Of a DNA stretch of 64,000 bases, positions 10,683-59,368 are shown one piece after another. Source of the DNA: Halichondria panicea (taxonomy: Eukaryota > Porifera > Demospongiae > Suberitida > Halichondriidae); contig NC_087381.1 in NCBI RefSeq assembly GCF_963675165.1, forward strand, positions 1,550,001 through 1,614,000. Direction: 5' to 3'. The translations under genes and the position numbers were made by a program. Position 1 is the first letter of the stretch. Each line of letters opens with the position of its first letter. Below the pieces are notes generated by a model that was not told the DNA's origin, did not search any database, and saw nothing but the letters and a program-made list of their open reading frames with translations.

Positions 10683-10757
10683 CTGTCAGTGTGTGTGTGA
10701 GGGGGAGGGGGTCATAATCATGTGATCTAACAAATAAATGTTAACACCGTTCAGAAC

Positions 10758-35900: not shown

Positions 35901-36379
35901 CAAGAGGATCTCTTGTCAGAGTTTGGTCAGTTTCTACCGGATGCCACAGCGTCCTTTGGTGCCTCCTTTATGGGCCCACCCCCTACCAAGAAACCAGCAC
36001 TCAGCTCGTCCGGGGGCGGGAAGGGGTCCAAACCTGTACACAGCAGGAAGGCATCGCAGGTGAGAGGGGGTGTGGTCATGGTAGATGTATGAAGTAAAGA
36101 GGTACACACGTACACTGTGTACTTTAATATATGTGCAACCTCCCCCCACACACACACCACACACCCCACACACACACCCCACACACACACCCCACACACA
36201 CACCACACACACACACACCCCACACACACACCACACACCCCACACACACACCCCACACACACACCCCACACACACACCCCACACACACCCCACACACACA
36301 CCCCACACACACATCACACCCCCCCCACACACACACCCCACACACACACCACACACACTCACACACACACCCCACACAC

Positions 36380-36433
<54 letters not shown>

Positions 36434-40129: not shown

Positions 40130-41542
40130 TTATCGTACGTACATCTCTATTATCTCAATGGGCGTGTCTTCATCTAGAAGAGCTTGATCAGCACAAATCC
40201 TCATCTCGATATCGTCTGTAGTTGGTTGAGGGAGTTGCTTGCAGAACCAAGGTGGGTTGTTGAACTCACAGCAAGTACTGTTACCCCCGCATCCCTGACC
40301 GTCCCAGAGTGGATCATCAGAATAGACGATATGAGTATTAGAAGTAATGAGCTGTCGACTTCCAGTTTCACAGAAGTAGTCTTGACCAATGAAGGGAGGT
40401 ACAACTCCAGTGTAGGTGAGGTCAGGTCTTGTGCAGGGACATACCTCTATAGTGGAGCGAGTTTCATCGATTGCATTCACAAATGTCCAGATGTGCTGAC
40501 GAGGCGACTGACCATGGGTTAGGCTCACACCATCAACGTAAACATCATCAATAGATAAAGCTCTGTTATTGAAATATGGAGTGAAAGCATCCGGAGTGGT
40601 ACTTTGATACGCAATAATTCGACCACAAACTTTCGAATACTCCACCCCATAAGTTGAATAGGTAGTGGAAGTACATCCTGCTGGTTCTTCTACTCGGCCA
40701 CAAGTACGCGATGGTGGTTCTGTTCTGGTTACCAGTCTCAATCCCTCTGGGCAGTTTTGGTTGGGATCAGTCATGTCGAGGTTGGCTACTCTCATCCATC
40801 CTCGGCCTCCTGCAGTGTTGCAGCTACAGCTTGTTCGATTCATGTCACAGTAGACCTGAACAGGAGAGCTAGTGGTGTTTCGAATCCAGTATTCTCCAGA
40901 TGGTCGGTCTTGAGGGATGTCACTACAAGAGCTAGCTGGGTTTCCTATTCTTGCTCCAGGATAGTATGCCATTGGACCTAACTCAGCAATATGGTTGTTC
41001 AGTTGCTCGTTAGTAGACTGTACTTGCTTATTAGTACTGCTCAGTTGCTCAGAAAAGTTGTTTTGAAGGAGCAAAATTGAATCACTGAGTTGAGCTTGTA
41101 GGATTTGAATCTGTTGACTGGATCGGTTGTTCAGTTGTTCGTTCATGGACTGTATTTGCTTATTGTTACTGCTCATCTGGTTCTTCAACTCTATATTGGT
41201 GTACACGAGTGCTGCCACAGCTACCAACAGAGACACAACAAAAGCTACGACGACAAGAATTGCAAACCATTTCTTACCAGATTCATTTTTAGCCACTTTT
41301 TGCCTTATTCTCTTTGTGTTGCTTTTGTTGTCCAGGACACTACTTTCGGTAGATTTAATATCTCCAGCAGTATTATGCTCTATGTATCCAGTGTTCTCAA
41401 CGGTACTGTACTCATTATCTTCGTCTGATTGGGTGAGACTTCTCTGGTGGATATTGTAAGCGGTGTTTTCCTGCGATATGGGGACTTGTGTGTCTCTTCT
41501 GTTGTTAGCATGCACAACATTGTAGGCAACATTTGGATCCAT
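40130..41542 (-). CDS. Type II receptor-like protein with tyrosine-motif tail and fibrinogen-related ectodomain, F3
   Basis: Single exon, 470 residues, on the strand opposite to SIN3 and inside its intron 11. The cytoplasmic tail (1-90) has tyrosines at 7, 29, 45 and 53. VAYNVV (5-10) fits the ITIM consensus [IVLS]xYxx[LIV], and YSTV is a YxxV motif. One transmembrane helix (about 92-114) has a basic cytoplasmic flank, indicating N-in topology. A coiled-coil stalk (115-190) contains a duplicated NNKQIQSMNEQLNN / TNKQVQSTNEQLNN block. The ectodomain (about 201-470) begins like a fibrinogen C-terminal domain (NPASSCSDIPQD, VYCDMN, GWMRVANLDMTDPNQNCP). Its conserved CGRIIAY, DGVSLTHG, CPCTRP, CCEFNNPPWF and TTDDIEMRIC blocks follow. 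Ligand unknown. Confidence 0.88.
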   Translation of the reverse strand: MDPNVAYNVVHANNRRDTQVPISQENTAYNIHQRSLTQSDEDNEYSTVENTGYIEHNTAGDIKSTESSVLDNKSNTKRIRQKVAKNESGKKWFAILVVVAFVVSLLVAVAALVYTNIELKNQMSSNNKQIQSMNEQLNNRSSQQIQILQAQLSDSILLLQNNFSEQLSSTNKQVQSTNEQLNNHIAELGPMAYYPGARIGNPASSCSDIPQDRPSGEYWIRNTTSSPVQVYCDMNRTSCSCNTAGGRGWMRVANLDMTDPNQNCPEGLRLVTRTEPPSRTCGRVEEPAGCTSTTYSTYGVEYSKVCGRIIAYQSTTPDAFTPYFNNRALSIDDVYVDGVSLTHGQSPRQHIWTFVNAIDETRSTIEVCPCTRPDLTYTGVVPPFIGQDYFCETGSRQLITSNTHIVYSDDPLWDGQGCGGNSTCCEFNNPPWFCKQLPQPTTDDIEMRICADQALLDEDTPIEIIEMYVR

Positions 41543-41830
41543 AATTCACTGTTGAAACTTGAAATAACTTCAATAATTCAGAACTCTGATACGTAAAAAA
41601 TACACAGGTTATTTACAATACTAGAAAGAACCTTCTAGAACACTAGTGGTACTTGTAACAGAAATGACTAAATAAGGACATGAAACTAGAAAGGAATCAC
41701 TAGAACTATAACACAACAGGTACAATACAGTATTGTCTTTATCTTAATGTTAGTTCCATACGGGAAGGATACCACAAAACTCTACCACTGGCTTGAAATA
41801 GTGTTACTATATAGACTTAGCTGAATGTTG

Positions 41831-41851
41831 GTAAGTGCAACACTCGATCGG
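41831..41851 (-). promoter_or_regulatory. Conserved upstream motif of fibrinogen-like genes
   Basis: GTAAGTGCAACACTCGATCGG. Related copies at 42,340-42,357 (TAAGTGTAGCACTCGGTAA) and 60,161-60,179 (TAAGTGCAATACTCGGCAC) lie about 80 bp upstream of the start of the truncated copy and of the relic near 60,080. This one lies about 290 bp upstream of F3. Confidence 0.45.
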
Positions 41852-41907
41852 TATACATGCATTTCCTTCTAGGTTTGTCTCAAGTCATTGACGCCAACAG
41901 TTACAAG

Positions 41908-42261
41908 TTATGTTATAAGAGGCTTGCACGATACTAACAGAGACAGAACAAAAGCTATGACCGCAATAATTGTAAACCACTTCTTAGCACATTCGTTTTT
42001 AGCCAAGCCTTGCCGTATTTTCTTTGTATTGCTCAGAACGTCGGAGGTAGAATTAGTTTTTGTTGTAAACACTTCTCTGTTTATTGCATAGGCTGTGTTA
42101 TTTTTCGATGCAAACGTTTCTCTCTCATTGTTCTCAACCGTAGTGTAGCCATTATCTTGGGTAGAATCGTTATTGTAAGCAGTGTTTCCTTGCAATGCAG
42201 TGGCTTGTGTTTCTCTTCTCTTGTTGGCATGCGCAACTTTGTAGGCAGTGTTTAGCTCCAT
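41908..42261 (-). pseudogene. Truncated fibrinogen-like family copy (tail and part of TM only)
   Basis: 117 residues from ATG 42,261: a cytoplasmic tail most like that of F6 (QDNGYTTVENN, RETFAS, NTKKIRQGLAKNECAKKWF) and the first half of the transmembrane helix (VIAFVLSLLV), then unrelated residues and a stop. Stalk and ectodomain are missing. Upstream on the minus strand are the conserved CGAGTG-type motif and a TATAAAA-like sequence (42,331-42,339), so the promoter looks intact. Probably a breakpoint remnant. Confidence 0.85.
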
Positions 42262-42330
42262 AATTTAAAGTTGAAACTCTACCACTAACGAGGCTAGCTG
42301 TTACTGTGCATGAGGTTAAAGTAGTTGCCG

Positions 42331-42339
42331 TGTTTTATA
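42331..42339 (-). promoter_or_regulatory. TATA-like box upstream of truncated copy
   Basis: On the minus strand GTATAAAAC, about 70 bp before the ATG at 42,261 and directly downstream of the conserved CCGAGTGCTACACTTA motif. The relic near 60,080 has a similar arrangement (TATTTTTATA at about 60,149-60,158). Confidence 0.45.
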
Positions 42340-42850
42340 CTAAGTGTAGCACTCGGTAAATATTTCCCTTTCAGATTTGTCTAATGCATCGATGAGTTAC
42401 ATATTGTTGTGTGCACGGGAGGCTTGCATGGTGATTCTATCACTTGCTTGTTTGTTCTGACTGCTTGCATAATGATTCATTCATTTTGTCACTGCATGTG
42501 CATGATAACACAACACCTTCTACCATGGTTTAGTAGTAGCTTTATGTTACATGTATGTAGCTTTGACACTTCCACTGAGGCATTATTAGCACATTATTCA
42601 CGGTTTTTATTTTCAGATTAATAGCACTATTAAGTATGAAAATAACCCGCTATTATAATACGATACCGTACATTTCCTTTACATGCGCACGTACATTGTA
42701 GGTCAGTAGAACTGTGGTACTGTACATAATTATATGTACATGCGCAGACTCAGTGTATACCAATTCTCGTATTACTATATGTACTGTGTCAGTGTGGGAA
42801 TCCTGTTGCCGAACTTTTACTTCTGTTTAATACTTGAGGCTATATGACAC

Positions 42851-43172
42851 CAAGAGTTTATGATAGAGAGAGAGTATCGAACGTAGGCATACTGTACATC
42901 AGATGTATGCGGAGAGTAACGTGACTTCCTGTATCTGTCACAAGCTTGGAATTTGCACACTGACCAATCCAGTGTGGGTGATGTAATCTATCAAGAAAGT
43001 AGATTACATCACCCACACTTGGATGGGTTGATAGATTACATCACCCACGCTTGGATTGGTCAGTGTGCAAATTCCAAGCTTGTGACAGATACAGGAAGTC
43101 ACGTTACTCTCCGCATACATCTGATGTACAGTATGCCTACGTTCGATACTCTCTCTCTATCATAAACTCTTG
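42851..43172. mobile_element. Fold-back (long inverted repeat) element
   Basis: Two near-perfect arms of about 140 bp (42,851-42,991 and 43,030-43,172; ends CAAGAGTTTATGATAGAGAG and its complement). The centre holds an extra copy of the inner arm sequence (AGATTACATCACCCACACTTGG). No coding capacity. It lies in the spacer between the truncated copy and F4. Confidence 0.85.
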
Positions 43173-44529
43173 ATTGACACACAGTACAACTACTTATTTA
43201 GGTTGTTCTAGCTGTATTATAGGTGTTATTGGTACAGTTGTACATGTGCGAATAAACCAAATTAGCAAAATTATTTGCTATCTAAGTTTGCTATCTGGTT
43301 AGGATTGTGATGTCATCATACAAGTACCATATATATAAACTGTACGTATAGATTTTGGTTATATTAGCACTAGAAAAGTTTGCATGGTTTGATGCAAACC
43401 ATTGTAGTAATAATTATGATTATATCTTTTACGGTAGATCATAGCCATGCATAAAGTGTGTACATATATATACATACATAGAATCTAAATCCCACGGGGC
43501 ACTTTTTCATTTGATGAACTAGAGCACTAAAGTGCAAACCCTCGGCTGGTGACATGATTATAAAGAAACCAGAAGACTGATATAATGCAGTGCATATAGT
43601 GATGTTGTTATCATCATCATGCATGACTTGCACAGCAACTCAGGAGCAATAAAACTAAACCAGACTGGAGGCATGCTGAAACATTTGAGAACAGGTAGTA
43701 GTACTATAAATATATGCACTGTGGATTAGGATCACAGCAAAGAAGCATGGAGTCTCAGAGAAGTATGGCTCCAGGTCCTGCATGGATCCCAGTCAGCTAA
43801 AGCAAGCTTTCTGGTTTAGTGACCCTGTTCCAATATTGTTCCTGGTATATACAGCTTTCTACTTTAGTGACCCTGTTCCATTGTTTCTGGACCTGGTACA
43901 GGATCACTTCAGTTATAAGTAACGCATGTGCAAGTTCTGTTCAAGCTACATTTTGCTCGCTTTTATTAGACAATGAAGCTTTAACACCGAAAGCTGCCAC
44001 TATTAGAAGTACTGACTTGTTGTGTGGAGGCTACCCATGCTGTAAACGCAGTGCTAGAGCATCCAGGTAAGCAGACCCAGTCACAAGCTTCTTAGCTTTT
44101 GCTCGTTTTTATTTGACAACGAAGGTTTAACATGAAATTCTGCCACTATTAAAATTAATAACTTGTTGTATGAAGGCTATCCATGCTGTAAACGCAGTGC
44201 CATGGCATGCAGGTGAGTAGACTCACACATTACAAACAAACAAACAAACAGACCAACGGACTACTATACCCGTGGCCGCCCACGCGCGCCTCGGGTAATA
44301 AGCATTACGTCATATGTAATCTACACAATCATGTATATAGTTACTGGGAAGTATGCACAATCATGCATGTATAGAACTGGCTAGCTACAGGTGCATGTTG
44401 TAGGTGGTAGTGTCATTTACAGTAGTTCATATGGATTCAGAGTACAGTGTTAAACTTAGTGTTAAATGTGTTAGTGCCAAGTGCAATGTGCAGAATAATA
44501 ACAAAACGTACTATTTTCAGTTTGAATTT
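43173..44529. other. Spacer 3' of F4
   Basis: Contains a diverged direct duplication of about 125 bp (43,965-44,080 and 44,100-44,225, sharing CCATGCTGTAAACGCAGTGC) and two copies of TAGTGACCCTGTTCCA around 43,815-43,880. A short (CAAA)n run lies at 44,235. No gene seen. Confidence 0.55.
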
Positions 44530-45939
44530 TTAGCGAACGTACATCTCCATTATCTCAATGGGTGTATCTTCATCTGGAAAACCTTGATCGAAACAAATCC
44601 TCATCTCGATATCGTCTGTAGTTGGTTGAGGGAGTTGCTTGCAGAACCACGGTGGATTGTTGAACTCACAGCAAGTACTGTTATCCGCGCAACCCTGACC
44701 GTCCCAGAGTGGATCGTTAGCGAAAAATCGTCCCCTATCGCCAGCCCCAGCGCCAGTCTCACAGAAATAATCTTGTCCGATGAAGGGTGGTACGGTTCCT
44801 AGGAAAGCATCGTTTGGACGTGTACAAGGACATCGGCTGGATTGGGTGTTAATGTTAGAGACAAACTCATCAATGGCGCACGCAAATGTCCAGATGTGTT
44901 GCCGTGGTGATTGTCCGTGTGTGAGACTGATTCCGTCAACGTAATCTCTGTCGATTGTCAGCGATGTTCTTCTTCGATGAAAAGGTGCAAAAGCATCCGG
45001 TCGACCATTTTGATACGATATGATTCGACCACACACATGCGAGTATTCCACTCCGTAAGTTTGAATTGGAAAAGACGTACAACCAGTTCTGAGTTCTCCT
45101 GTTCTACCACAAGTACGCAGTGGTGGCTCTGTCCTTATTGTAAGGTTGAATCCGTCTGGGCAGTTTTGGTTGGGATCGGTCATGTCGAGGTTGGCTACCC
45201 TCATCCATCCTCCTGCAGTGTTGCAGCTACAGCTTGTTCCATTCATGTCACAGTAGACCTGAACAAGAGAGCTAGTGGTGTTTCGAATCCAGTATTCTCC
45301 AGATGATCGGTCTTGAGGGATGTCACTACAAGAGCTAGCTGGGTTGTTGATTGTTCCAAGATAGAATGGCTCAAGTTCTTCAAGAATAGAATTTATGTTC
45401 TGAACATCTCTGAAAAGTATTTGTGAATTTTGTTGATCAGAAATGTTGTTTAGTATTATTGTGATTGATGTTATTTCTTGATTAACATTCCTTAACTCTA
45501 TGCTCGTGTGTACCAGTGCTGCCACAGCTAATGTAAGAGATAGTAGAGCAAATACAATAGCTAGGATGGATACAACTCTGTGGTGTTTTAGTTGAGTCGT
45601 CATTTGAGATGTGTTTGTTGTATGCTCATCTTTTCTCGTAGTTGTATTTGGCACTATGTATACATATTCGTCCGTTTCTTGTGTTTGACTGTCTTTCCGA
45701 ATTTTATTGGCATTTTCCACAATGTTATAGGCTGGATTTTTTTTACAACTTCTTTGTGTTTCAGTAGATGTCTCCACAATGTTGTAGGCAATGTTCTGAT
45801 CTGTAAGTGTTGCATATTTCTCATTATCGATGATGTTATAGGCAATATTCTCTTCCATTTGATGAGGGGAACCTTGCATTCCATGTTGTGTGACGTTCTT
45901 AGTAGTAGGAACAACATTGTAGGCTACATTAGACTCCAT
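44530..45939 (-). CDS. Type II receptor-like protein with ITIM/ITAM-like tail, F4
   Basis: Single exon, 469 residues from the ATG at 45,939, which aligns with the starts of F3, F5 and F6; the frame is open 56 codons further upstream, but that extension looks like untranslated leader. The tail (1-120) has VAYNVV (5-10), IAYNII (32-37), YATL (42-45), IAYNIV (50-55), PAYNIV (69-74) and EYVYIV (91-96). Three fit the ITIM consensus, and YATL-x6-YNIV has ITAM spacing. The transmembrane helix is at about 122-144. A stalk (145-185) shorter than in F3 and rich in Ile/Asn/Ser precedes the fibrinogen-related domain (about 190-469). That domain is the most divergent of the cluster (FNLTIRTEPP, TGCTSFPIQTYG, RRRTSLTIDRDYV, CPCTRPNDAFLG). 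No function is known; an inhibitory or activating cell-surface receptor is inferred. Confidence 0.87.
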   Translation of the reverse strand: MESNVAYNVVPTTKNVTQHGMQGSPHQMEENIAYNIIDNEKYATLTDQNIAYNIVETSTETQRSCKKNPAYNIVENANKIRKDSQTQETDEYVYIVPNTTTRKDEHTTNTSQMTTQLKHHRVVSILAIVFALLSLTLAVAALVHTSIELRNVNQEITSITIILNNISDQQNSQILFRDVQNINSILEELEPFYLGTINNPASSCSDIPQDRSSGEYWIRNTTSSLVQVYCDMNGTSCSCNTAGGWMRVANLDMTDPNQNCPDGFNLTIRTEPPLRTCGRTGELRTGCTSFPIQTYGVEYSHVCGRIISYQNGRPDAFAPFHRRRTSLTIDRDYVDGISLTHGQSPRQHIWTFACAIDEFVSNINTQSSRCPCTRPNDAFLGTVPPFIGQDYFCETGAGAGDRGRFFANDPLWDGQGCADNSTCCEFNNPPWFCKQLPQPTTDDIEMRICFDQGFPDEDTPIEIMEMYVR

Positions 45940-47929
45940 AATTGGAATTGTTAGCTGCTGCAAACTCTTTGGTTGTTGACAGCAGTTAGGACGTTTTTTT
46001 AACTTTCCTTCGTGACTTGTTGTACGATAGACTGACATGCACCTATATATATACTGCACACAGTGCCACATATACCTACAGTGTGAGTGGGTGTAGAGCA
46101 TGCACACATCATTATAGTGGACTTTTCCTTCCTGCTAACAGGATATGGGGGACACAAATATATGGCATCTTATAGTTGTTGTGTGTAATTTAATTAGGCC
46201 AGTATTTTAACCTTGCCTCCATGCATGCATGTACTTACACTAGTACTGCAACCTACATAATTATAATAATAGATGTATAATTAGAAATCTCTGCTTACAT
46301 GTATAATAGCATTCAAATCGTAGTTTACCTTTCCTTCCTGCTAACAGGATGCAGGGACACACACATACATTTATACAGACAGTGCACTCTCGCTAATCCT
46401 GTTCTCTCAAGTACGGTCACCTCAATATAACAGTCGTTTTGTTTCGTTTGGCACGTATTGCTACATACATTGTACATGTACATGTAGCTTGATCTTTGCT
46501 GCACAAAACTCGCCCTGAAATACGGTCACTCGCTATTCTATACCGGCCAGTTCTGGCTACCCCAAACTAGTTTTAATGTACGTTTGTTATGACCAGTTAT
46601 GACGTTTTGGGTGTGGTTTGGCAAAATCATTAACTTCAAGGTATAGGACCACTGTTTAGCCGCGGCTATTTTCTGAAATACAGCTACCTTCGCTATTCTG
46701 GCCCAAGGGTGACTGGATTAACGAGAGTCTACTGTACATAATCATGTATGCCCAGGAGTAGATAAGAGTAAGAGTGTTGAACTGCTGTAGTAATGTGGAA
46801 CCTTGACATGCGTCATCACTGTCAGCACTATTCAATTAATGAGTGCTGTTAAGTACACTGTGGTCTGTGGTTTGTTACACTGTGGTCTGTGGTTTGTAGC
46901 ACTGAACTGTGCAATCACAACATGTGCAGTTTCTGGGAAGTGTTGATAACATAACAATTAGTACTGATTAGCCTCTACACAGGCTCTCCTTTTTCTTCTT
47001 TATCACAATCATTCAATAAGATAAAATACTGTATTAATTGGAGAAATAAAGAAAGAAATAGACGTAGAGTTAGGGCCTGTATCGGGAAGTCGCGTGAGGG
47101 TAGAAGGGTGGTAGAAGGGTGAAAATGAGCGTGGGCATGCTGAGCTAGAAATGTTGGACTGCCCACGCAGAGATCTATGACTAATAAAACTTTGCCTGCA
47201 GCAAGCTGGACATGGACTTGGAACTGGAAGTTTGCAAGCACTATAGCTAGCTATACCTTAGGCTTAGCTAGATGATCTACTAGTCTAGATTGTGTGTTCA
47301 GATTCTATCAGACTATTACTTTTTCTTGTGTCTTTCTACACAGTATAGATCAAGAATAGCTTAGTCATCATTATCATATAGCAGGTAGCTACTGCCACCA
47401 GAGCTAGCCACGCTGTTCTCTGATCTGACTTGTAGCACAGCTTGGTGGTTATGCGTGGGAGAATACCTTACGTCACGATTGTGGGCTACATATCGCCCAC
47501 GTTCATAAAAATCCTTGTGGATCACGTGATTTCCCAAACCAGGCCTTACTTTTTCTTAACTGTACGCCCATTTTTTTCTTTGCTGCCTCACTATGTCTTT
47601 CTTATGATTTTAATGGATGAACAGTGACAGCAGCAAGAAAAAGTAAGGCCTGGGAACGAGGCTAAGTACTGATTACTATCAAGTGATGACACAAGAGCAG
47701 GAAATTGCTATTACTAGCAGTTCAACACTCTTACTCTTATCTACTCTGGCTATTACAACTTTTAGTTGTTGGAAGCAGAATTAGGCTGCCTCGCTTACTC
47801 TTATCTACTCTTGGTATGCCTTATAGGCTATTATTAATGAATTAAGTTAACTTTAATGACTGTACAGAATATATTGTGTATTTAATGCGTTAATTCTAGA
47901 AAGGATTCAATATGTCTTTTTAGCATAAT
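45940..47929. repeat. Spacer block upstream of F4 (duplicated upstream of F5)
   Basis: About 2 kb almost identical to 51,695-53,661, with a partial third copy at 53,841-54,480. It includes the leader of F4, an ACAGGATATGGGG / ACAGGATGCAGGG pair, and a longer direct repeat of CTGTGGTCTGTGGTTTGT. No gene apart from the promoter region of F4. Confidence 0.8.
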
Positions 47930-48040
47930 TTATGTACATCTCTATTATCTCAATGGGTGTCTCTTCATTATAAATGTCTTGATCAGCACAAAGCCTCAAC
48001 TCGATATCGTCTGTAGTTGGTTGAGGGAGTTGCTTGCACA
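47930..48040 (-). pseudogene. 3'-end relic of fibrinogen-like gene (first)
   Basis: On the minus strand it encodes the last ~35 residues of the family ectodomain (CKQLPQPTTDDIELRLCADQ, then YNEETPIEIIEMYI), with the final VR-stop lost. The upstream side is cut at CTGGTCGGTGG, which is SIN3 intron sequence. Copies at 53,662-53,770 and 55,520-55,630 have the same junction. Confidence 0.9.
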
Positions 48041-48372
48041 CTGGTCGGTGGTAGTGGTCGGTACTAGATATAGTACTAGTACTTTGTCTCTAGACTAAGA
48101 ATAATCACCTCTGAGCTAGGCCTACAATAGTTGACTACATTTTAAGCTGTAAAAGAAGCACATTTATTTTGTGAGATTGTTCTTAGGCCCAGTTTACTAC
48201 ATGTTAAGCTGTAAAAAGGAACATTTGTGTGTTTGAATTGTGATTGAGGATTGTAAATAGCCAACACTCTGAAAATGATGGGCACATCACTGCTAGCTTA
48301 AATGTAGGGGTTACCGTATTATAATATAGCAGGTAATTTTGCATGGTGCAGTTTTCGTATAAACTATATATT

Positions 48373-49226
48373 ACATGTATTTATGCCTCGAGGCGTAGCC
48401 GCACGAGGGATACGGTAAAGCTGACTGTGTGTGTGTCTGTCTGTCTGTGTGTGTGTGTATTCCAGCTATAACTGCTCAACGGTTGCAATGCGACGAAAAC
48501 TAACAGCTTCTATAGGCTTCTAGCCACGTTCTCTTGGATTTTGATTCGTGGATTAGCAAACTAAAGCTTCTTTCTCGAGTTATGGCTAGTTTGACTCACA
48601 TTGAAGGCTGTTGCAGTCTCTTCAGAATCTTTCATAGCATCATCTGTCCGCACAAACTTTCTATTCAACATATGAGTTAGCCTTGCACTAAAGCGCTAGC
48701 TTTTTGTTAGCTACAATACTCAGAAAATATCTGTTAAAACAGCTAGCTAGCTAGCAGTACAGTAGCCATTTGTGAAATTGATCTCTTTGGACACACCCTT
48801 TAATTATTCCTGTGGATGTAATGCGCATGCGCGCTCATTCCCACGTGTGATATCCAAGATCCAGATCCAGATTCTCCTGGCAGAATCATTTTTGTCTTGA
48901 GGGCCTGGTAAACCACAAAACACTACCATATAACAATATAGATAACAATATGCATGTACACAGGTCTTTTCTTCTTAGATATTATATACACTGAACTACA
49001 GATCCTGGAAGAATCAATTTTCTTCTTTCTTGAGGTCCTGGTAAGCCACATAATACAATAAATAACAACAATAGATGCATGTAAATAAGTATTTTCTTCT
49101 CAGTGACTTTATATAGATAAGCTAACTTTAATATAAAATTCATTATAGATAACACTCTAATACTTTTGAGCGAAAGCAAAAACATGGCGAGAGGCATTAG
49201 CACAGCGCCAGCTTGAACACTAGTTA
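48373..49226. mobile_element. Unclassified inserted repeat (~0.85 kb)
   Basis: Present here and at about 55,970-56,824 but absent at the matching position 39,340, where flanks ACTATATATT and TAGTTCAG are contiguous. It starts with ATGCCTCGAGGCGTAGCCGC, has a TG/TCTG microsatellite at 48,430-48,460, and carries an internal diverged duplication (about 48,850-48,980 versus 48,995-49,110, both with a CCTGGTAA motif). No transposase or reverse transcriptase is visible. Confidence 0.6.
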
Positions 49227-49774
49227 GTTCAGTTTCCATGCACTGTTTGCTTGAGTAGTAGAATGTTGAATGATGTCATACATGTAGTAATTACTACTTG
49301 AGTAGTTAATACGAGCATGCAGTTACATTGTAAATATTTCATATTTTATAAATTTTAGAATGGTTACATACATGCATGTAGGGCCAATTGCGCATTAATA
49401 TTTCACCGTAATTGCGGTATTTGTAAATCTCCTTTACATGCATGCATGCACGTAGGTGGTTCAGTAGCGCTTTGTACATGTACAGACATAATTATACATA
49501 CAGACTCGGTGTATACAAATTCTCGTATTACTACATACATGTACGAATATACCAAATTAGCAGAAAACGTTGCGATCTGGCAAGGATCGTGATGTCACCA
49601 TACAAGTGTCATATATACATGTGCACGTATAGTACGTCTTTGCTACATATGTACATGTATCTAGTCAATAGCGAAATACAGCGTATCTTTTTACGGGACG
49701 CAATTTAGATCATGGCCGTTCATAGATCCCGGCCATATGGCACTTTTTTATCGGCTGACTAATTACACTGTACG

Positions 49775-50111
49775 TTAGGTACTTTAGGTAAATAGCTGTG
49801 AGCTGGCTAAGGCTATGGCTATATAGAGTCACTTTCAATTTGTTTTATTGTCTTTTTATTGTCAAAGCTTTTCCTCGCATTGAGCGATTCATCAGGACAA
49901 AAAATAATAAAAACAAATAGTGACTTTTATAGACAAAAGTGATATCCAGACGTCAAACCAGACGTTATACAGGTATTTTACTATAGGGCTACCTAGTCAA
50001 CGTCAATGCGAGGAAAAGCTTTGACAATAAAAAGACAATAAAACAAATTGAAAGTGACTCTATATAGCCATAGCCTTAGCCAGCTCACAGCTATTTACCT
50101 AAAGTACTAAA
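49775..50111. mobile_element. Fold-back element with 10-bp target duplication (copy 1)
   Basis: Inverted arms of about 125 bp (AGGTACTTTAGGTAAATAGC and AAAGCTTTTCCTCGCATTGA, with their complements) around a short centre. It is flanked by ACACTGTACG on both sides (49,765-49,774 and 50,112-50,121). The corresponding site near 39,880 has no element. Target duplications of 9-11 bp with long inverted ends suggest a Mutator-like origin. Confidence 0.75.
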
Positions 50112-50335
50112 ACACTGTACGGAGTACATTGTACAGTACAGAGCTAGCTAGCTACATGCAGACGTGTTTTAGTGGCAGCATGCATGCATGTCATTTTAGT
50201 TCATAGTCTTGGAAAACGGATTCTGAGTTTAGTGTTGGCGCAGTTTCCTGCATGAGTGCAAGTGCATACATTCCAGCAGTGTAATAATTATATACAATAT
50301 GTATACTTATGTAGTATGTTTTCAATTCTAAAGTT

Positions 50336-51694
50336 TTATCGTACGTACATCTCTATTATCTCAATGGGCGTGTCTTCATCTATAAGAGCTTGATCAGCAC
50401 AAATCCTCATCTCGATATCATCTGTAGTTGGTTGAGGGAGTTGCTTGCAGAACCACGGTGGATTGTTGAACTCACAGCAAGTACTGTTACCCCCGCATCC
50501 CTGACCGTCCCAGACTGGATCATCAGAGTAAAAGATAAATCTACGTTCTTGTCGACTTCCAGTTTCACAGAAGTAGTCTTGATCGATGAAGGGAGGTACA
50601 ACTCCAGTGTAGGTCAGGTCAGGTCTTGTGCAAGGACACACACCAGAATCGGATCGAGTTTCCTGGACTGCATTAGCAAATGTCCAGATGTGCTGACGAG
50701 GCGACTGACCATGGGTTAGGCTCACACCATCAACGTAACCATCATCAATAGATAAAGCTCTATTATCAAAATATGGATCGAAAGCATCCGAAGTGCTACT
50801 TTGATATGCAATGATTCGACCACAAACTTTCGAATACTCCACCCCATAAGTTGAATAGGTAGTGGAAGTACATCCTGGTTCTTCTACTCGGCCACAAGTA
50901 CGCAATGGTGGTTCTTCCCTGGTTACCAGTCTCAATCCCTCTGGGCAGTTTTGGTTGGGATTGGTCATGTCAAGGTTGGCTACCCTCATCCATCCTCCTG
51001 CAGTATTGCAGCTACAGCTTGTTCGATTCATGTCACAGTAGACCTGAACAGGAGCGCTAGTACTGTCAGTCGCGATCCAGTATTCTCCAGATGGTCGGTC
51101 TTGAGGAATGTCACTGCAAGAGCTTGCTGGGTTGTTGATTGTTCCAAGATAGAATGGCTCAAGTTCTTCAAGAATAGAATTTATGTTCTGATCAGAAATG
51201 TTGTTTAGTATTATTGTGATTGATGGTATTTCTTGATTAACATTCCTTAACTCTATGCTCGTGTGTACCAGTGCTGCCACAGCTAATGTAAGAGATAGTA
51301 GAGTAAATACAATAGCTAGGATGGATACAACTCTGTGGTGTTTTAGTTGAGTCCTCATTTGAGATTCGTTTGTTGTGTGCTCATCTTTTCTCGTAGTTGT
51401 ATTTGGCACTATGTATACATATTCGTCCGTTTCTTGTGTTTGACTGTCTTTCCGAATTTTGTTGGCATTTTCCACAATGTTATAGGCTGGATTTTTTTTA
51501 CAACTTCTTTGTGTTTCAGTAGATGTCTCCACAATGTTGTAGGCAATGTTCTGATCTGTAAGTGTTGCATATTTCTCATTATCGATGATGTTATAGGCAA
51601 TATTCTCTTCCATTTGATGAGGGGAACCTTGCGTTCCATGTTGTGTGACGTTCTTAGTAGTAGGAACAACATTGTAGGCTACATTAGGCTCCAT
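50336..51694 (-). CDS. Type II receptor-like protein with ITIM/ITAM-like tail, F5 (chimeric)
   Basis: Single exon, 452 residues from ATG 51,694. The tail, transmembrane helix and stalk are nearly identical to F4: tyrosines 7, 34, 42, 52, 71, 92 and 94; three ITIM-consensus motifs; YATL-x6-YNIV; helix at about 122-144. The stalk has a short deletion relative to F4. From about residue 195 (YWIATDSTS) the fibrinogen-related domain instead follows F6 (EGLRLVTR, RVEEPGCTSTTYSTYG, FDNRALSIDDGYV, CPCTRPDLTYTG). The gene therefore joins an F4-type N-terminal half to an F6-type ectodomain, with the switch in the codons around 51,060-51,130. All cysteines expected from F3 and F6 are kept. As with its relatives, function is unknown. 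Confidence 0.88.
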   Translation of the reverse strand: MEPNVAYNVVPTTKNVTQHGTQGSPHQMEENIAYNIIDNEKYATLTDQNIAYNIVETSTETQRSCKKNPAYNIVENANKIRKDSQTQETDEYVYIVPNTTTRKDEHTTNESQMRTQLKHHRVVSILAIVFTLLSLTLAVAALVHTSIELRNVNQEIPSITIILNNISDQNINSILEELEPFYLGTINNPASSCSDIPQDRPSGEYWIATDSTSAPVQVYCDMNRTSCSCNTAGGWMRVANLDMTNPNQNCPEGLRLVTREEPPLRTCGRVEEPGCTSTTYSTYGVEYSKVCGRIIAYQSSTSDAFDPYFDNRALSIDDGYVDGVSLTHGQSPRQHIWTFANAVQETRSDSGVCPCTRPDLTYTGVVPPFIDQDYFCETGSRQERRFIFYSDDPVWDGQGCGGNSTCCEFNNPPWFCKQLPQPTTDDIEMRICADQALIDEDTPIEIIEMYVR

Positions 51695-53661
51695 GATTGG
51701 AATTGTTAGCTGCTGCAAACTCTTTGGTTGTTGACAGCAGTTAGGACATTTTTTTAACTTTCCTTCGTGACTTGTTGTACGATAGACTGACATGCACCTA
51801 TATATATACTGCACACAGTGCCACATATACCTACAGTGTGAGTGGGTGTAGAGCATGCACACATCATTATAGTTGACTTTTCCTTCCTACTAACAGGATA
51901 TGGGGTACACAAATATATGGCATCTTAGTTGTTGTGTGTAATTTAATTAGGGCAGTATTTTAACCTTGCCTCCATGCATGCATGTACTTACACTAGTACT
52001 GCAACCTACATAATTATAATAATAGATGTATAATTAGAAATCTCTGCTTACATGTATAATAGCATTCAAATCGTAGTTTACCTTTCCTTCCTGCTAACAG
52101 GATGCAGGGACACACACATACATTTATACAGACAGTGCACTCTCGCTAATCCTGTTCTCTCAAGTACGGTCACCTCAATATAACAGTCGTTTTGTTTCGT
52201 TTGGCACGTATTGCTACATACATTGTACATGTACATGTAGCTTGATCTTTGCTGCACAAAACTCGCCCTGAAATACGGTCACTCGCTATTCTATACCGGC
52301 CAGTTCTGGCTACCCCAAACTAGTTTTAATGTACGTTTGTTACGACCAGATATGACGTTTTGGGTGTGGTTTGGCAAAATCATTAACTTCAAGGTATAGG
52401 ACCTCTGTTTAGCCGCGGCTATTAATTTTTCTGAAATACAGCTACCTTCGCTATTCTGGCCCAAGGGTGACTGGATTAACGAGAGTCTACTGTACATAAT
52501 CATGTATGCCCAGGAGTAGATAAGAGTAAGAGTGTTGAACTGCTGTAGTAATGTGGAACCTTGACATGTGTCATCACTGTCAGCACTATTCAATTAATGA
52601 GTGCTGTTAAGTACACTGTGGTCTGTGGTTTGTTACACTGAACTGTGCAATCACAACATGTGCAGTTTCTGGGAAGTGTTGATAACATAACAATTAGTAC
52701 TGATTAGCCTCTACACAGGCTCTCCTTTTTCTTCTTTATCACAATCGTTCAATAAGATAAAATACTGTATTAATTGGAGAAATAAAGAAAGAAATAGACG
52801 TAGAGTTAGGGCCTGTATCGGGAAGTCGCGTGAGGGTAGAAGGGTGTTAGAAGGGTGAAAATGAGCGTGGGCATGCTGAGCTAGAAATGTTGGACTGCCC
52901 ACGCAGAGATCTATGACTAATAAAACTTTGCCTGCAGCAAGCTGGACATGGACTTGGAACTGGAAGTTTGCAAGCACTATAGCTAGCTATACCTTAGGCT
53001 TAGCTAGATGATCTACTAGTCTAGATTGTGTGTTCAGATTCTATCAGACTATTACCTTTTCTTGTGTCTTTCTACACAGTATAGATCAAGAATAGCTTAG
53101 TCATCATTATCATATAGCAGGTAGCTACTGCCACCAGAGCTAGCCACGCTGTTCTCTGATCTGACTTGTAGCACAGCTTGGTGGTTATGCGTGGGAGAAT
53201 ACCTTACGTCACGATTGTGGGCTACATATCGCCCACGTTCATAAAAATCCTTGTGGATCACGTGATTTCCCAAACCAGGCCTTACTTTTTCTTAACTGTA
53301 CGCCCGTTTTTTTCTTTGCTGCCTCACTATGTCTTTCTTATGATTTTAATGGATGAACAGTGACAACAGCAAGAAAAAGTAAGGCCTGGGAACGAGGTTA
53401 AGTACTGATTACTATCAAGTGATGACGCAAGAGCAGGAAATTGCTATTACTAGCAGTTCAACACTCTTACTCTTATCTACTCTGGCTATTACAACTTTTA
53501 GTTGTTGGAAGCAGAATTAGGCGGTCTCGCTTACTCTTATCTACTCTTGGTATGCCTTATAGGCTATTATTAATGAATTAAGTTAACTTTAATGACCGTA
53601 CAGAATATGTTGTGTATTTAATGCGTTAATTCTAGAAAGGATTCAATATGTCTTTTTAGCA
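51695..53661. repeat. Spacer block upstream of F5
   Basis: Copy of 45,940-47,929 with a few substitutions and one fewer CTGTGGTCTG repeat. No gene besides the F5 leader and promoter. Confidence 0.8.
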
Positions 53662-53770
53662 TATGTACATCTCTATTATCTCAATGGGTGTCTCTTCATT
53701 ATAAATGTCTTGATCAGCACAAAGCCTCAACTCGATATCGTCTGTAGTTGGTTGAGGGAGTTGCTTGCAC
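53662..53770 (-). pseudogene. 3'-end relic of fibrinogen-like gene (second)
   Basis: Same 35-codon relic as at 47,930, slightly shorter at the former stop end. It is followed by only 70 bp of SIN3-intron spacer before the sequence jumps back to spacer 45,940-type DNA at 53,841. Confidence 0.9.
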
Positions 53771-53840
53771 ACTGGTCGGTGGTAGTGGTCGGTACTAGAT
53801 ATAGTACTAGTACTTTGTCTCTAGACTAAGAATAATCACC

Positions 53841-54660
53841 TTACATGTATAATAGCATTCAAATCGTAGTTTACCTTTCCTTCCTGCTAACAGGATGCAG
53901 GGACACACACATACATTTATACAGACAGTGCACTCTCGCTAATCTTGTTCTCTCAAGTACGGTCACCTCAATATAACGGTCGTTTTGTTTCGTTTGGCAC
54001 GTATTGCTACATACATTGTACATGTACATGTAGCTTGATCTTTGCTGCACAAAACTCGCCCTGAAATGCGGTCACTCGCTATTCTATACCGGCCAGTTCT
54101 GGCTACCCCGAACTAGTTTTAATGTACGTTTGTTACGACCAGATAGGATGTTTTGGGTGTGGTTTGGCAAAATCATTAACTTCAAGGTATAGGACCTCTG
54201 TTTAGCCGCGGCTATTAATTTTTCTGAAATACAGCTACCTTCGCTATTCTGGCCCAAGGGTGACTGGATTAACGAGAGTCTACTGTACATAATCATGTAT
54301 GCCCAGGAGTAGATAAGAGTAAGAGTGTTGAACTGCTGTAGTAATGTGGAACCTTGACATGCGTCATCACTGTCAGCACTATTCAATTAATGAGTGCTGT
54401 TAAGTACACTGTGGTCTGTGGTTTGTAGCACTGAACTGTGCAATCACAGCATGTGCAGTTTCTGGGAAGTACTGATTACTATCAAGTGATGACGCATTTT
54501 TTTCTTTGCTGCCTCACTATGTCTTTCTTATGATTTTAATGGATGAACAGTGACAACAGCAAGAAAAAGTAAGGCCTGGGAACGAGGCTAAGTACTGATT
54601 ACTATCAAGTGATGACGCAAGAGCAGGAAATTGCTATTACAACACTCTTACTCTTATCTA
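53841..54660. repeat. Partial third copy of the F4/F5 upstream spacer
   Basis: 53,841-54,470 repeats 46,295-46,940, and 54,471-54,660 repeats 47,560-47,735 with internal deletions. Non-coding. Confidence 0.75.
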
Positions 54661-55334
54661 CAGCAGTTTTAAGCACCTTTGCAACACACACACACAAATG
54701 GGTAAACCACAATCTAAACCTACAATGTAAACATGGAATACATGCAGGCTAGCCTTGAGTGGTTTCTTACCAAATAAAAATTGGCCAGTGTACTAACACA
54801 ACGACTATAGATCTAGCTATACAGGGTTGCAGTAATAAGGCCTACTCCACAGATGTGATATGGAGAATGATGTACCAGAGCTGAGGTGTGTACTTGGTCT
54901 ATCTCATATCACACAGAAAAAATAACTAGCAATTTGAAATGTGAACATAATTATTGACAGCAGTGACAGCAGTGGCGTAGGAAGAGAGTTATCACTTAGA
55001 GAGCATGGAAAAAGTTTAGAAGGGGAGCTGATACGCATGTGCACACATATTAAAGTGCCTGCAAGGGGGTCTTAGGGTAGTCCCCTAAAAAAATTGCATG
55101 CTCTGGTATTGATTGGTGTATTTGGTACAATTAAAAGCTTGATCTTTGATTCAATTGAGCTTGGGTAAAAAGCAAGCATGCAGTGTTAGGGGCCTGGTTC
55201 CTACTTTTAGTACACCACTGGACTGGACAGTACTGCAGATGGTCTCCCATTTGAGTAACCACAATTTACTACAATAGTACATTGTGGTTTTATGCTTGTG
55301 TTCATGTGTTGCAAAGGTGCTTAAAACTGCTGTA
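54661..55334. mobile_element. MITE with CAGCAGTTTTAAGCACC termini
   Basis: Inverted ends CAGCAGTTTTAAGCACCTTT (54,661) and complement (to 55,334), about 28 bp each, flanked by TA on both sides. The sister spacer copies (47,735 and 53,480) read TCTACTCTGGC without the element, so the target was TA, which suggests a Tc1/mariner-type origin. 674 bp, no transposase. Confidence 0.85.
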
Positions 55335-55519
55335 CTCTTGCTATTACAACTTTTAGTTGTTGGAAGCAGAATTAGGCGGCCTCGCTTACTCTTATCTACT
55401 CTTGGTATGCCTTATAGGCTATTATTAATGAATTAAGTTAACTTTAATGACTGTACAGAATATGTTGTGTATTTAATGCGTTAATTCTAGAAAGGATTCA
55501 ATATGTCTTTTTAGCATAA

Positions 55520-55630
55520 TTTATGTACATCTCTATTATCTCAATGGGTGTCTCTTCATTATAAATGTCTTGATCAGCACAAAGCCTCAACTCGATATCG
55601 TCTGTAGTTGGTTGAGGGAGTTGCTTGCAC
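55520..55630 (-). pseudogene. 3'-end relic of fibrinogen-like gene (third)
   Basis: Third copy of the relic at 47,930 with the same fusion to SIN3 intron sequence at the CTGGTCGG junction. Confidence 0.9.
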
Positions 55631-57928
55631 ACTGGTCGGTGGTAGTGGTCGGTACTAGATATAGTACTAGTACTTTGTCTCTAGACTAAGAATAATCACC
55701 TCTGAGCTAGGCCTACAATAGTTGACTACATTTTAAGCTGTAAAAGAAGCACATTTATTTTGTGAGATTGTTCTTAGGCCCAGTTTACTACATGTTAAGC
55801 TGTAAAAAGGAACATTTGTGTGTTTGAATTGTGATTGAGGATTGTAAATAGCCAACACTCTGAAAATGATGGGCACATCACTGCTAGCTTAAATGTATAG
55901 GGAGGGGTTACCGTATTATAATATAGCAGGTAATTTTGCATGGTGCAGTTTTCGTATAAACTATATATTACATGTATTTATGCCTCGAGGCGTAGCCGCA
56001 CGAGGGATACGGTAAAGCTGACTGTGTGTGTGTCTGTCTGTCTGTGTGTGTGTGTATTCCAGCTATAACTGCTCAACGGTTGCAATGCGACGAAAACTAA
56101 CAGCTTCTATAGGCTTCTAGCCACGTTCTCTTGGATTTTGATTCGTGGATTAGCAAACTAAAGCTTCTTTCTCGAGTTATGGCTAGTTTGACTCACATTG
56201 AAGGCTGTTGCAGTCTCTTCAGAATCTTTCATAGCATCATCTGTCCGCACAAACTTTCTATTCAACATATGAGTTAGCCTTGCACTAAAGCGCTAGCTTT
56301 TTGTTAGCTACAATACTCAGAAAATATCTGTTAAAACAGCTAGCTAGCTAGCAGTACAGTAGCCATTTGTGAAATTGATCTCTTTGGACACACCCTTTAA
56401 TTATTCCTGTGGATGTAATGCGCATGCGCGCTCATTCCCACGTGTGATATCCAAGATCCAGATCCAGATTCTCCTGGCAGAATCATTTTTGTCTTGAGGG
56501 CCTGGTAAACCACAAAACACTACCATATAACAATATAGATAACAATATGCATGTACACAGGTCTTTTCTTCTTAGATATTATATACACTGAACTACAGAT
56601 CCTGGAAGAATCAATTTTCTTCTTTCTTGAGGTCCTGGTAAGCCACATAATACAATAAATAACAACAATAGATGCATGTAAATAAGTCTTTTCTTCTCAG
56701 TGACTTTATATAGATAAGCTAACTTTAATATAAAATTCATTATAGATAACACTCTAATACTTTTGAGCGAAAGCAAAAACATGGCGAGAGGCATTAGCAC
56801 AGCGCCAGCTTGAACACTAGTTAGTTCAGTTTCCATGCACTGTTTGCTTGAGTAGTAGAATGTTGAATGATGTCATACATGTAGTAATTACTACTTGAGT
56901 AGTTAATACTGAGCATGCATGCAGTTACATTGTAAATATTTCATATTTTATAAATTTTAGAATGGTTACATACATGTAGGGCCAATTGTGCATTAATATT
57001 TCACCGTAATTGCGGTATTTGTAAATCTCCTTTACATGCATGCACGTAGGTGGTTCAGTAGCGCTTTGTACATGTACAGACATAATTATACATACAGACT
57101 CGGTGTATACAAATTCTCGTATTACTATACATGTACGAATATACCAAATTAGCAGAAAACGTTGCGATCTGGCAAGGATCGTGATGTCACCATACTAGTG
57201 TCATATATACATGTGCACGTATATAGTACGTCTTTGCTACATATGTACATGTATCTAGTCAATAGCGAAATACAGCGTATCTTTTTACGGGACGCAATTT
57301 AGATCATGGCCGTTCATAGATCCCGGCCATATGGCACTTTTTTATCGGCTGACTAATTACACTGTACGTTAGGTACTTTAGGTAAATAGCTGTGAGCTGG
57401 CTAAGGCTATGGCTATATAGAGTCACTTTCAATTTGTTTATTGTCTTTTTATTGTCAAAGCTTTTCCTCGCATTGAGCGATTCATCAGGACAAAAAATAA
57501 TAAAAACAAATAGTGACTTTTATAGACAAAAGTGATATCCAGACGTCAAACCAGACGTTATACAGGTATTTTACTATAGGGCTACCTAGTCAACGTCAAT
57601 GCGAGGAAAAGCTTTGACAATAAAAAGACAATAAAACAAATTGAAAGTGACTCTATATAGCCATAGCCTTAGCCAGCTCACAGCTATTTACCTAAAGTAC
57701 TAAAACACTGTACGGAGTACATTGTACAGTACAGAGCTAGCTAGCTACATGCAGACGTGTTTTAGTGGCAGCATGCATGCATGTCATTTTAGTTCATAGT
57801 CTTGGAAAACGGATTCTGAGTTTAGTGTTGGCGCAGTTTCCTGCATGAGTGCAAGTGCATACATTCCAGCAGTGTAATAATTATATACAATATGTATACT
57901 TATGTAGTATGTTTTCAATTCTAAAGTT
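55631..57928. repeat. Spacer block between relic and F6
   Basis: Third copy of the SIN3 intron block with the same two insertions as 48,041-50,335. No gene. Confidence 0.85.
57369..57704. mobile_element. Fold-back element with 10-bp target duplication (copy 2)
   Basis: Same insertion as at 49,775 with the same ACACTGTACG duplications (57,359-57,368 and 57,705-57,714). It was duplicated together with the spacer rather than inserted twice. Confidence 0.75.
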
Positions 57929-59368
57929 TTATCGTACGTACATCTCTATTATCTCAATGGGTGTCTCTTCATCATAAATGTCTTCATCAGAACAAAGCCT
58001 CATCTCGATATCGTCTGTAGTCGGTTGAGGGAGTTGCTTGCAGAACCACGGTGGATTGTTGAACTCACAGCAAGTACTGGTACCCCCGCATCCCTGACCA
58101 TCCCAGAGTGGATCATCAGGGAAAAAGATAAATCTACGTGCTTGTCGACTTCCAGTTTCACAGAAGTAGTCTTGACCAATGAAGGGAGGTACAACTCCAG
58201 TGTAGGTGAGGTCAGGTCTTGTGCAGGGACATACCGCTGTAGTGGAGCGAGTTTCATCGATTGCATTCACAAATGTCCAGATGTGCTGACGAGGCGACTG
58301 ACCATGGGTTAGGCTCACACCATCAACGTAAACATCATCAATAGATAAAGCTCTGTTATTGAAATATGGAGTGAAAGCATCCGAAGTGCTACTTTGATAT
58401 GCAATGATTCGACCACAAACTTTCGAATACTCCACCCCATAAGTTGAATAGGTAGTGGAAGTACATCCTGGTTCTTCTACTCGGCCACAAGTACGCAATG
58501 GTGGTTCTGTTCTGGTTACCAGTCTCAATCCCTCTGGGCAGTTTTGGTTGGGATTGGTCATGTCAAGGTTGGCTACCCTCATCCATCCTCCTGCAGTATT
58601 GCAGCTACAGCTTGTTCGATTCATGTCACAGTAGACCTGAACAGGAGAGCTAGTACTGTCAGTCGCGATCCAGTATTCTCCAGATGGTCGGTCTTGAGGG
58701 ATGTCACTACAAGAGCTAGCTGGGTTTCCTATTCTTGCTCCAGGATAGTATGCCATTGGACCTAACTCAGCAATATGGTTGTTCAGTTGCTCGTTAGTAG
58801 ACTGTACTTGCTTATTAGTACTGCTCAGTTGCTCAGAAAAGTTGTTTTGAAGGAGCAAAATTGAATCACTGAGTTGAGCTTGTAGGATTTGAATCTGTTG
58901 ACTGGATCGGTTGTTCAGTTGTTCGTTCATGGACTGTATTTGCTTATTGTTACAGCTCATCTGGTTCTTCAACTCTATATTGGTGTACACGAGTGCTGCC
59001 ACAGCTACCAACAGAGACAGAAAAACAAAAGCTACAATGAAAAAAAGTGCAAGGCACTTTTTAGCACATCCATTTTTAGCCAAGTTTTGCCTTATTCTCT
59101 TCGTGTTATCTAGAATGTCGTAGGTAGAATTAGTCTCTGCCGTATTATTTATTACATCAAAAGCAGTGTATGATATGTTAGTTCTCGATGCGAACGTTTC
59201 TCTCCCGTTGTTCTCAATGACACTGTAGCCATTATCTTGAGTGGAAGTTCTTTCGTCTCCAGAAGTCCCAATATTGTAGGCAGTGTTTTCCTGCACTGCA
59301 GTGGCTTGTATTTCTTTTTCTCTTCTATTTTTAGTGTGCACAACATCGTAGGAAACGTTTGGCTCCAT
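57929..59368 (-). CDS. Type II receptor-like protein with tyrosine-motif tail, F6
   Basis: Single exon, 479 residues. Tail tyrosines lie at 7, 31, 48, 67 and 83: VSYDVV (5-10) and STYDIL (81-86) fit the ITIM consensus, and YSVI is a YxxI motif. The transmembrane helix is at about 105-128. The coiled-coil stalk and membrane-proximal sequence (NIELKNQMS, NEQLNN repeats, ELGPMAYYPGARIGNPASSC) are almost identical to F3, whereas the tail is diverged from F3 and close to the truncated copy at 42,261. The fibrinogen-related domain (about 212-479) matches F5 and F3, with a distinct end (CSDEDIYDEETPIE) shared with the 3' relics. A surface receptor role is inferred from architecture. Confidence 0.88.
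   Translation of the reverse strand: MEPNVSYDVVHTKNRREKEIQATAVQENTAYNIGTSGDERTSTQDNGYSVIENNGRETFASRTNISYTAFDVINNTAETNSTYDILDNTKRIRQNLAKNGCAKKCLALFFIVAFVFLSLLVAVAALVYTNIELKNQMSCNNKQIQSMNEQLNNRSSQQIQILQAQLSDSILLLQNNFSEQLSSTNKQVQSTNEQLNNHIAELGPMAYYPGARIGNPASSCSDIPQDRPSGEYWIATDSTSSPVQVYCDMNRTSCSCNTAGGWMRVANLDMTNPNQNCPEGLRLVTRTEPPLRTCGRVEEPGCTSTTYSTYGVEYSKVCGRIIAYQSSTSDAFTPYFNNRALSIDDVYVDGVSLTHGQSPRQHIWTFVNAIDETRSTTAVCPCTRPDLTYTGVVPPFIGQDYFCETGSRQARRFIFFPDDPLWDGQGCGGTSTCCEFNNPPWFCKQLPQPTTDDIEMRLCSDEDIYDEETPIEIIEMYVR

Follow-up and report, generated by a model that had tools for sequence, protein, structure and literature searches.

Within the 64,000-nucleotide stretch of DNA analysed here (the window, C5:1550001-1614000, part of a 131.5-Mb genome of 39 contigs), four related genes, F3 to F6, lie on the minus strand, and each is an intact single open reading frame (ORF) that runs from a homology-supported methionine to a common C-terminus. 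Their predicted products are, as the original prediction had it, receptor-like type II membrane proteins with an N-terminal tail that bears tyrosine motifs, a transmembrane segment, a stalk and a C-terminal ectodomain, or head. F3 (positions 40130..41542 of the window, 470 amino acids) has its tail at 41261-41542, its transmembrane segment at about 41198-41269 and its ectodomain at 40133-40966. F4 (44530..45939, 469 amino acids) has a tail with four Nx[AS]Y sites at 45568-45939 and an ectodomain at 44533-45369. F5 (50336..51694, 452 amino acids) is chimeric, with an F4-type tail at 51323-51694 and an F6-type ectodomain at 50339-51157, and F6 (57929..59368, 479 amino acids) has its tail at 59057-59368 and its ectodomain at 57932-58750. 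We find that the tails of this family combine a conserved NxxY-type motif with a YxxPhi motif (Phi, hydrophobic), and we suggest that F3 to F6 may be recognition or uptake receptors.

The type II (N-in) orientation had been proposed before and is borne out by the distribution of charge: in all 31 members measured, the 15 residues on the N-terminal side of the transmembrane segment have a more positive net charge than the 15 on its other side, which by the positive-inside rule places the N-terminus inside. Each of F3 to F6 has one strong hydrophobic segment, no second strong one follows the transmembrane segment in any of the 31 members (highest 19-residue Kyte-Doolittle mean 1.14), and the ectodomain side is Cys-rich, with sequons. 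A single transmembrane segment, a positive-inside N-terminus and a Cys-rich C-terminal domain thus support a single-pass type II protein, as read from charge and hydropathy rules. When F3 was used as a query against the genome, it gave 115 matches at E<=1e-5, which are pieces and not genes and are a lower bound, and by hand count 84 of them lie in clusters at C5:0.88-0.95, C5:1.25-1.37, C5:1.59-1.62 and C13:4.09-4.42 Mb, so the earlier description of a clustered multigene receptor-like family also stands. By sequence, then, F3 to F6 are members of a large clustered family of predicted type II membrane proteins encoded by single-ORF genes.

Our family survey covered 70 loci plus the window; 14 further match regions were left out, and members there are missing from it. 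From these loci we picked by hand 32 tails, all from ORFs with a start methionine and a transmembrane segment, leaving out the partial tails of L014, L022, L025 and L032 and the complete tails of the broken ORFs L035 and L036. In 27 of the 32 tail-bearing members one frame stays open to a C-terminal PWF/PVF motif, the others being L012, L027, L053, F2 and F3b.

Motif counts in these 32 tails were compared with the mean of 500 shuffles. NxxY was found 66 times versus 14.5 in the shuffles (29/32 tails), its narrower form Nx[AS]Y 57 times versus 2.3 (also 29/32), Nx[AS]Yx[VIL] 45 times versus 0.3 (26/32) and YxxPhi 54 times versus 21.7 (27/32). We define motif A as N-x-[AS]-Y-x-hydrophobic and motif B as [DE]-N-x-Y-x-x-[VIL]; used as regular expressions, of which that for B was drawn up after the tails had been inspected, the two occur together in 25 of the 32 tails. 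A motif-free analysis, in which windows around every tyrosine received weights set by tail clustering (into 28, 19 or 12 clusters), showed information peaking at -3 (N) and -1 (A), followed by +2 (0.87-0.90 bits), with +3 lower (0.56-0.78) and a hydrophobic fraction at -2 of 0.18-0.23 versus a background of 0.17-0.18. We also divided the tyrosine sites solely by whether A or S stands at -1, using 19 clusters. Sites with A or S (class A, weighted n 36) have N at -3 in 84% of cases (background 11%) and a hydrophobic residue at +2 in 62%, at +3 in 25% and at -2 in 33% (background 18%), while the remaining sites (weighted n 31) have D or E at -3 in 46%, N at -2 in 45% and a hydrophobic residue at +3 in 69%. 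Thus, the tails carry an NxxY-like motif plus a YxxPhi motif, and the second, with N at -2 and a hydrophobic +3, is YxxPhi and not an immunoreceptor tyrosine-based inhibitory motif (ITIM). In the main motif, conservation is highest at N(-3), A/S(-1), the tyrosine and the hydrophobic +2, which makes it a motif of the NxxY type.

The original prediction had instead read the tails as ITIMs or as activation motifs (ITAMs), so that the proteins would be immune receptors of the inhibitory or the ITAM-like kind, with signalling via SHP- or Syk-type proteins. The motifs that it quoted are all present, namely VAYNVV in F3, F4 and F5, IAYNII and IAYNIV in F4 and F5, and VSYDVV and STYDIL in F6, as is YATL-x6-YNIV in F4 and F5, the two tails of the 32 that fit an ITAM when Val is allowed (shuffle mean 0.7). 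Strict ITIMs, three each in F4 and F5, number 15 versus 4.1 in the shuffles (shuffle maximum 11) and so exceed what composition gives; the hydrophobic excess at -2 of the class A sites also fits an ITIM, and the genome has an SHP-type gene. Precedents are found in the Botryllus FcoR receptors, which have ITIM/hemITAM tails, and in Hydractinia Alr, which has such motifs, according to PMC12065747. However, strict ITIMs are confined to 9/32 tails, and the tails of F4 and F5 are 97% identical, so their copies are one event; the strict ITAM, Yxx[LI]x6-12Yxx[LI], is found in 0/32 tails (shuffles 0.2); -2 is near background across all tyrosine sites; and class A sites are hydrophobic at +3 in only the 25% given above, versus 18% in the background.

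An alignment of 15 C5 tails, F4 and F5 not among them, bears on the same question, since the prediction had called for excess conservation at both Y and +3. The three consensus tyrosine columns are 100%, 100% and 93% identical versus a mean of 72% (P=0.004), so the excess at the tyrosines is there; with the three sites pooled, the -3 column averages 91% (P=0.06) and the +3 column 56% (P=0.92), so that at +3 no excess was found. Among the 14 tails that have the tyrosine of the third site, all carry Val or Ile at its +3 position. The tyrosine of STYDIL is private to F6 in this alignment. We therefore reject ITIM/ITAM as the family motif, given also its 9/32 and 0/32 tails and the near-background -2, and consider it quite improbable that the proteins are immune receptors of that kind.

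The tail motifs can also be taken mainly as sorting signals, with NxxY and YxxPhi driving clathrin/AP-2 or sorting nexin-type endocytosis of a scavenger or feeding lectin and with no tyrosine-kinase signalling. Motifs A and B overlap known endocytic signals, and YxxPhi shows the excess over shuffles and the spread among tails given above. Motif B, however, has acidic residues at -3/-4 and E, S or D at +1, which suit a kinase site and are needless for AP-2, and the up to four A sites per tail in F4 and F5 exceed what a sorting signal needs. The phosphotyrosine-binding (PTB) domain of CED-6-type adaptors may not need phosphorylation to bind NPxY, as stated in PMC8092387, which again would suit sorting. 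On balance, we regard this as a possible but rather unlikely account of the tails.

Exchange between tail and head is seen directly in F5, which is clearly a hybrid of the F4 tail and 5′ flank with the F6 ectodomain and 3′ flank. Relative to F4, F5 shows 97.5% identity over the stretch that starts ~2.15 kb upstream of the gene and reaches codon ~172; relative to F6, it shows 97.7% identity over the stretch that starts at codon ~187 and takes in all of the 2.5 kb compared downstream. Past the switch, its identity to F4 drops to 84-88% in pieces. The switch interval (51133..51177, minus strand) lies between these two stretches, at the stalk/ectodomain junction. Tails and outer domains can thus be exchanged, and F5 is a direct example. 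F3 and F6, compared per 100 nt, are 81-100% identical from nt 301 on and 68-77% identical in the first 300 nt. Among 14 intact C5 genes, tail identity correlates with transmembrane identity (rho 0.63, Mantel p=0.0045) and the head halves correlate with each other (0.54, p=0.0065), whereas the values for tail versus head are rho 0.14-0.17 (p 0.15-0.20). Without F5 alone, the tail gives rho 0.40 (p=0.04) with the first half of the head and 0.28 (p=0.075) with the second, and without both F4 and F5 no block pair correlates (tail-transmembrane 0.09, head halves 0.27, all p>=0.099). The Mantel contrast thus arises from F4 and F5, so that exchange is shown once, in F5, and not as a general process, and we dropped family-wide tail/head exchange as a claim.

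The head had been described as a fibrinogen-type ectodomain, of which only the first ~45 residues hold. In the ectodomain alignment of 41 members, a Pfam scan gave no match above cut-off. Fibrinogen_C (PF00147) stayed below it, with 12/41 members at E<=0.1 (best E 0.0044; 16.6 bits at E 0.0073; F2 13.5 bits versus 22), and of the 32 matches that Fibrinogen_C itself has in the genome none is at an F-family locus, so this identity was rejected. A separate Fibrinogen_C cluster lies at C6:4161286-4209973 and contains 22 of the 32 matches by hand count. The fibrinogen-like YCDxxxxGGGW domain GGGWT_bact (NCBIfam NF040941) matches 39/41 members at E<=0.1 over the first ~45 ectodomain residues; against its cut-off of 30 bits, F6 barely passes with 30.3 and F1 falls below with 24.9. 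With the ectodomain profile compared against Protein Data Bank (PDB) sequences, fibrinogen beta aligned with the ~48 N-terminal residues (SC..YW..YCDM..GGW) at E 0.007 and intelectin, more weakly, at E 0.056. This is a likeness to ficolin, angiopoietin and FIBCD1; the difference from such fibrinogen-related proteins is that the other ~210 head residues have no PF00147 match and that the genuine Fibrinogen_C matches are elsewhere in the genome.

An AlphaFold model of the ectodomain (pLDDT 87, pTM 0.88) has as its top PDB fold match, and its sole match at E<=0.001, the procollagen I C-propeptide (E 6.6e-4, TM-score 0.32/0.35), followed at E 0.010 by an ephrin-receptor ligand-binding domain and at E 0.011 by a second procollagen propeptide, while the Ang1 fibrinogen-related domain is at E 0.07; since the listed TM-scores are low, we assign no fold to the ectodomain as a whole. 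The procollagen match raises the alternative that the proteins are structural or adhesive, in the manner of extracellular matrix, with the head as a collagen C-propeptide- or fibrinogen-like assembly module and the tails as adhesion anchors. COLFI (PF01410) indeed reaches E<=0.1 in 30/41 members, the best being L062 (E 6.9e-6, 26.0 bits versus a cut-off of 26.2), and the paralogue L063 has Gly-X-Y repeats before the same ectodomain. But the COLFI matches span only about 50 residues, the TM-score is low as noted, and matrix proteins are not usually amplified into large clusters that include broken copies, so that we find a structural role very doubtful.

A scan of prokaryote contigs yielded one relative of the ectodomain among 131 pattern matches, L073, a 584-amino-acid ORF on a contig (2005-3759) of a Myxococcales metagenome-assembled genome. 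L073 is colinear with the ectodomain over its whole length, with 33% identity (residues 8-273; pairwise E 1e-47), and itself matches NF040941; it differs in being a bacterial protein whose N-terminal part is a different one and in which no tyrosine tail was seen. Its contig is 65-70% GC, and its neighbours by Pfam (coproporphyrinogen oxidase, NnrS, PPIC-type rotamase and a sigma-54 activator) are of bacterial type, so L073 is unlikely to be a piece of animal contaminant. This bacterial homologue raises the question of horizontal transfer of the head, which is possible in either direction. Among viral sequences, 47 stretches fit the ectodomain pattern and none was confirmed as a relative.

Our preferred reading, to which we give a probability of about 0.43, is that F3 to F6 are recognition or uptake receptors with dual-motif tails that belong to a multigene type II family, and they probably act as oligomers in that role. 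Each step beyond the presence of the motifs is one that we infer. The stalk, coiled-coil-like by eye, would multimerise the head, which may bind surface glycans or some other ligand, either microbial or on cell surfaces; clustering could then allow Src-type kinases to phosphorylate the tail, where motif A would be read by PTB/FERM-type adaptors, leading to uptake, and motif B by SH2 proteins, e.g., a SHARK-type kinase or an SHP-type phosphatase, in the manner of Draper. The coupling of ligand to output may be diversified by gene amplification and, now and then, by an exchange of tail and head. The genome contains an SHP-type gene with the order SH2-SH2-PTP (protein-tyrosine phosphatase; C3:8404573-8406287) and a SHARK-type gene with the order SH2-Ank-SH2-kinase (C9:5255365-5259157), both labelled by domain order and not by a tree, and on C2, SH2 domains adjoin tyrosine kinase domains. 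The Sin3, SH2-SH2-PTP, SH2-ankyrin-SH2-kinase and fibrinogen-domain genes fit an animal genome. Protein-tyrosine phosphatase domains have undergone a large expansion, with 176 matches, and C4 carries most among the matches listed.

Several observations weigh against the receptor reading, besides the late definition of motif B and the loss of every block correlation when F4 and F5 are removed. Canonical NPxY is found in only 3/32 tails (3 versus 0.3 in the shuffles). F2, L048 and L055 have the same architecture but neither motif, and motif B as defined is absent from F1, L005, L039 and L064; of the two that lie in the window, both divergent members on the minus strand, F1 (28922..30154, 410 amino acids) has one Nx[AS]Y in its tail, and F2 (31044..32162) has a broken frame (31389-32162 / 31044-31388). 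In the 13 C5 tails checked, all three tyrosine codons are TAC in 13/13 with no synonymous change, so selection there is inseparable from recent ancestry; across the whole tail set, in favour of the reading, both codons are used (35 TAC/18 TAT at site A, 16 TAC/8 TAT at site B). The ratio of nonsynonymous to synonymous substitution (dN/dS, taken from sums over the 88 pairs out of 105 that were not saturated) is 0.46 for the tail versus 0.35 for both stalk and head. Finally, the genome has 9 PID matches, and of the two examined neither was assigned to a known adaptor such as CED-6/GULP. Positive selection on the head was also considered and was rejected, its dN/dS of 0.35 being purifying overall.

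A broader extension of the receptor reading seems unlikely to us on present sequence evidence: an early-branching animal would have a recombining recognition system, in which the type II receptors would number dozens and have secreted counterparts, their GGGWT head would be related to bacterial proteins, and their NxxY/YxxPhi tail would feed a Src/SHARK/SHP circuit like that of Draper. Heads would be re-paired with tails by crossovers at the stalk/head junction like that in F5, so that specificity and output could evolve separately. If the genome is that of a sponge or another early-branching lineage, the family would offer a concrete, testable candidate mechanism by which such animals distinguish microbes or neighbours, and NxxY plus YxxPhi tails, rather than ITIMs, would be suggested as the common wiring.

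Known receptors share parts of this design. Ly49 and NKR-P1 are type II C-type-lectin-like receptors of natural killer cells with clustered, amplified genes, and they resemble the F family in having an N-terminal tail with tyrosine motifs, a transmembrane segment, a stalk and a C-terminal binding head; they differ in that the head is unrelated and that the ITIM is not the conserved motif in the F family. CED-1, Draper and MEGF10 are type I receptors, whereas the family described here is type II, large and multigene, uses mostly Nx[AS]Y instead of NPxY and has no strict ITAM; unlike them, the seven window pieces of the family that were scanned have no EMI or EGF Pfam match. The likeness is that of a single-pass protein whose tail combines N-x-x-Y with Y-x-x-hydrophobic. 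According to PMC8092387, NPxY plus YxxL or an ITAM serve uptake in Draper, where Src42a phosphorylates, Shark reads and Corkscrew erases; SHARK-type kinase, SHP-type phosphatase and SH2-kinase genes are likewise present here. FcoR and Alr, according to PMC12065747, are similarly clustered invertebrate receptors with tail tyrosine motifs that include YxxI/L/V, and FcoR differs in having Ig domains, a signal sequence and ITIM/hemITAM tails where the F family has a type II form, a GGGWT head and NxxY.

In the sponge Dysidea avara, fibrinogen-domain genes are reported to respond to microbe-associated molecular patterns (PMC6208332). A text search of an Amphimedon grafting paper (PMC5450542) found no mention of fibrinogen, tyrosine, receptor, SH2 or ITAM, passages of PMC11999971 and PMC8394812 have nothing on such a receptor family, and a search of titles and abstract starts in the open-licence literature, with subscription papers outside its scope, found no description of the F3-F6 family.

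The same ectodomain is found both in the type II form with a tail and in other architectures, with a stalk whose length varies between members. Six members (L006, L007, L010, L013, L021 and L056) have, by eye, a signal-peptide-like start in place of tail and transmembrane segment, followed by a coiled-coil-like stalk, and L026, L031, L034, L066 and L070 have Pro/Thr-rich stalks. In L009 (2427-3381), a 132-nt coding minisatellite, of 4.8 and 2.4 copies in two Tandem Repeats Finder (TRF) rows, lengthens the stalk of a 742-amino-acid ORF. The idea that these tails also occur on other ectodomains was rejected on the basis of sequence queries against the genome, in which the F4 tail matched only F4 and F5 and the F6 tail had 34 matches, all on C5. 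Upstream of F3 lies a truncated copy, F3b (41908..42261, minus strand, 117 amino acids), which has the tail and part of the transmembrane segment, within which its homology ends. We rejected F3b as an alternative first exon, since the GTA at its breakpoint is also present at the same point in intact genes and a donor there is uninformative.

F3 to F6 are all contained, in antisense, in an intron of ~21.5 kb of a plus-strand Sin3 gene, which splits Sin3_corepress. The first part of that domain is in an ORF piece at 38787..39022, whose start need not be that of the exon and which is followed by a GT donor at 39023, and the rest in the next exon at 60517..60610 (AG ending at 60516; 3′ end approximate), with a further Sin3 ORF piece, one that contains a paired amphipathic helix, at 34614..34946. 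Elsewhere in the window, a protein of ~660 amino acids with a Cys-rich N-terminus and many hydrophobic segments is present in tandem copies at 7383-9365, 13546-15528, 18077-19730 and 20597-22531, some of them broken; Pfam gave nothing at E<=1 for the copy at 7383-9365. A 331-amino-acid ORF at 10745-11740 on the plus strand resembles, by eye, a retroelement reverse transcriptase, and long CA/CACAC-rich simple repeats adjoin the Sin3 exons at 33500-34100 and 36090-36570.

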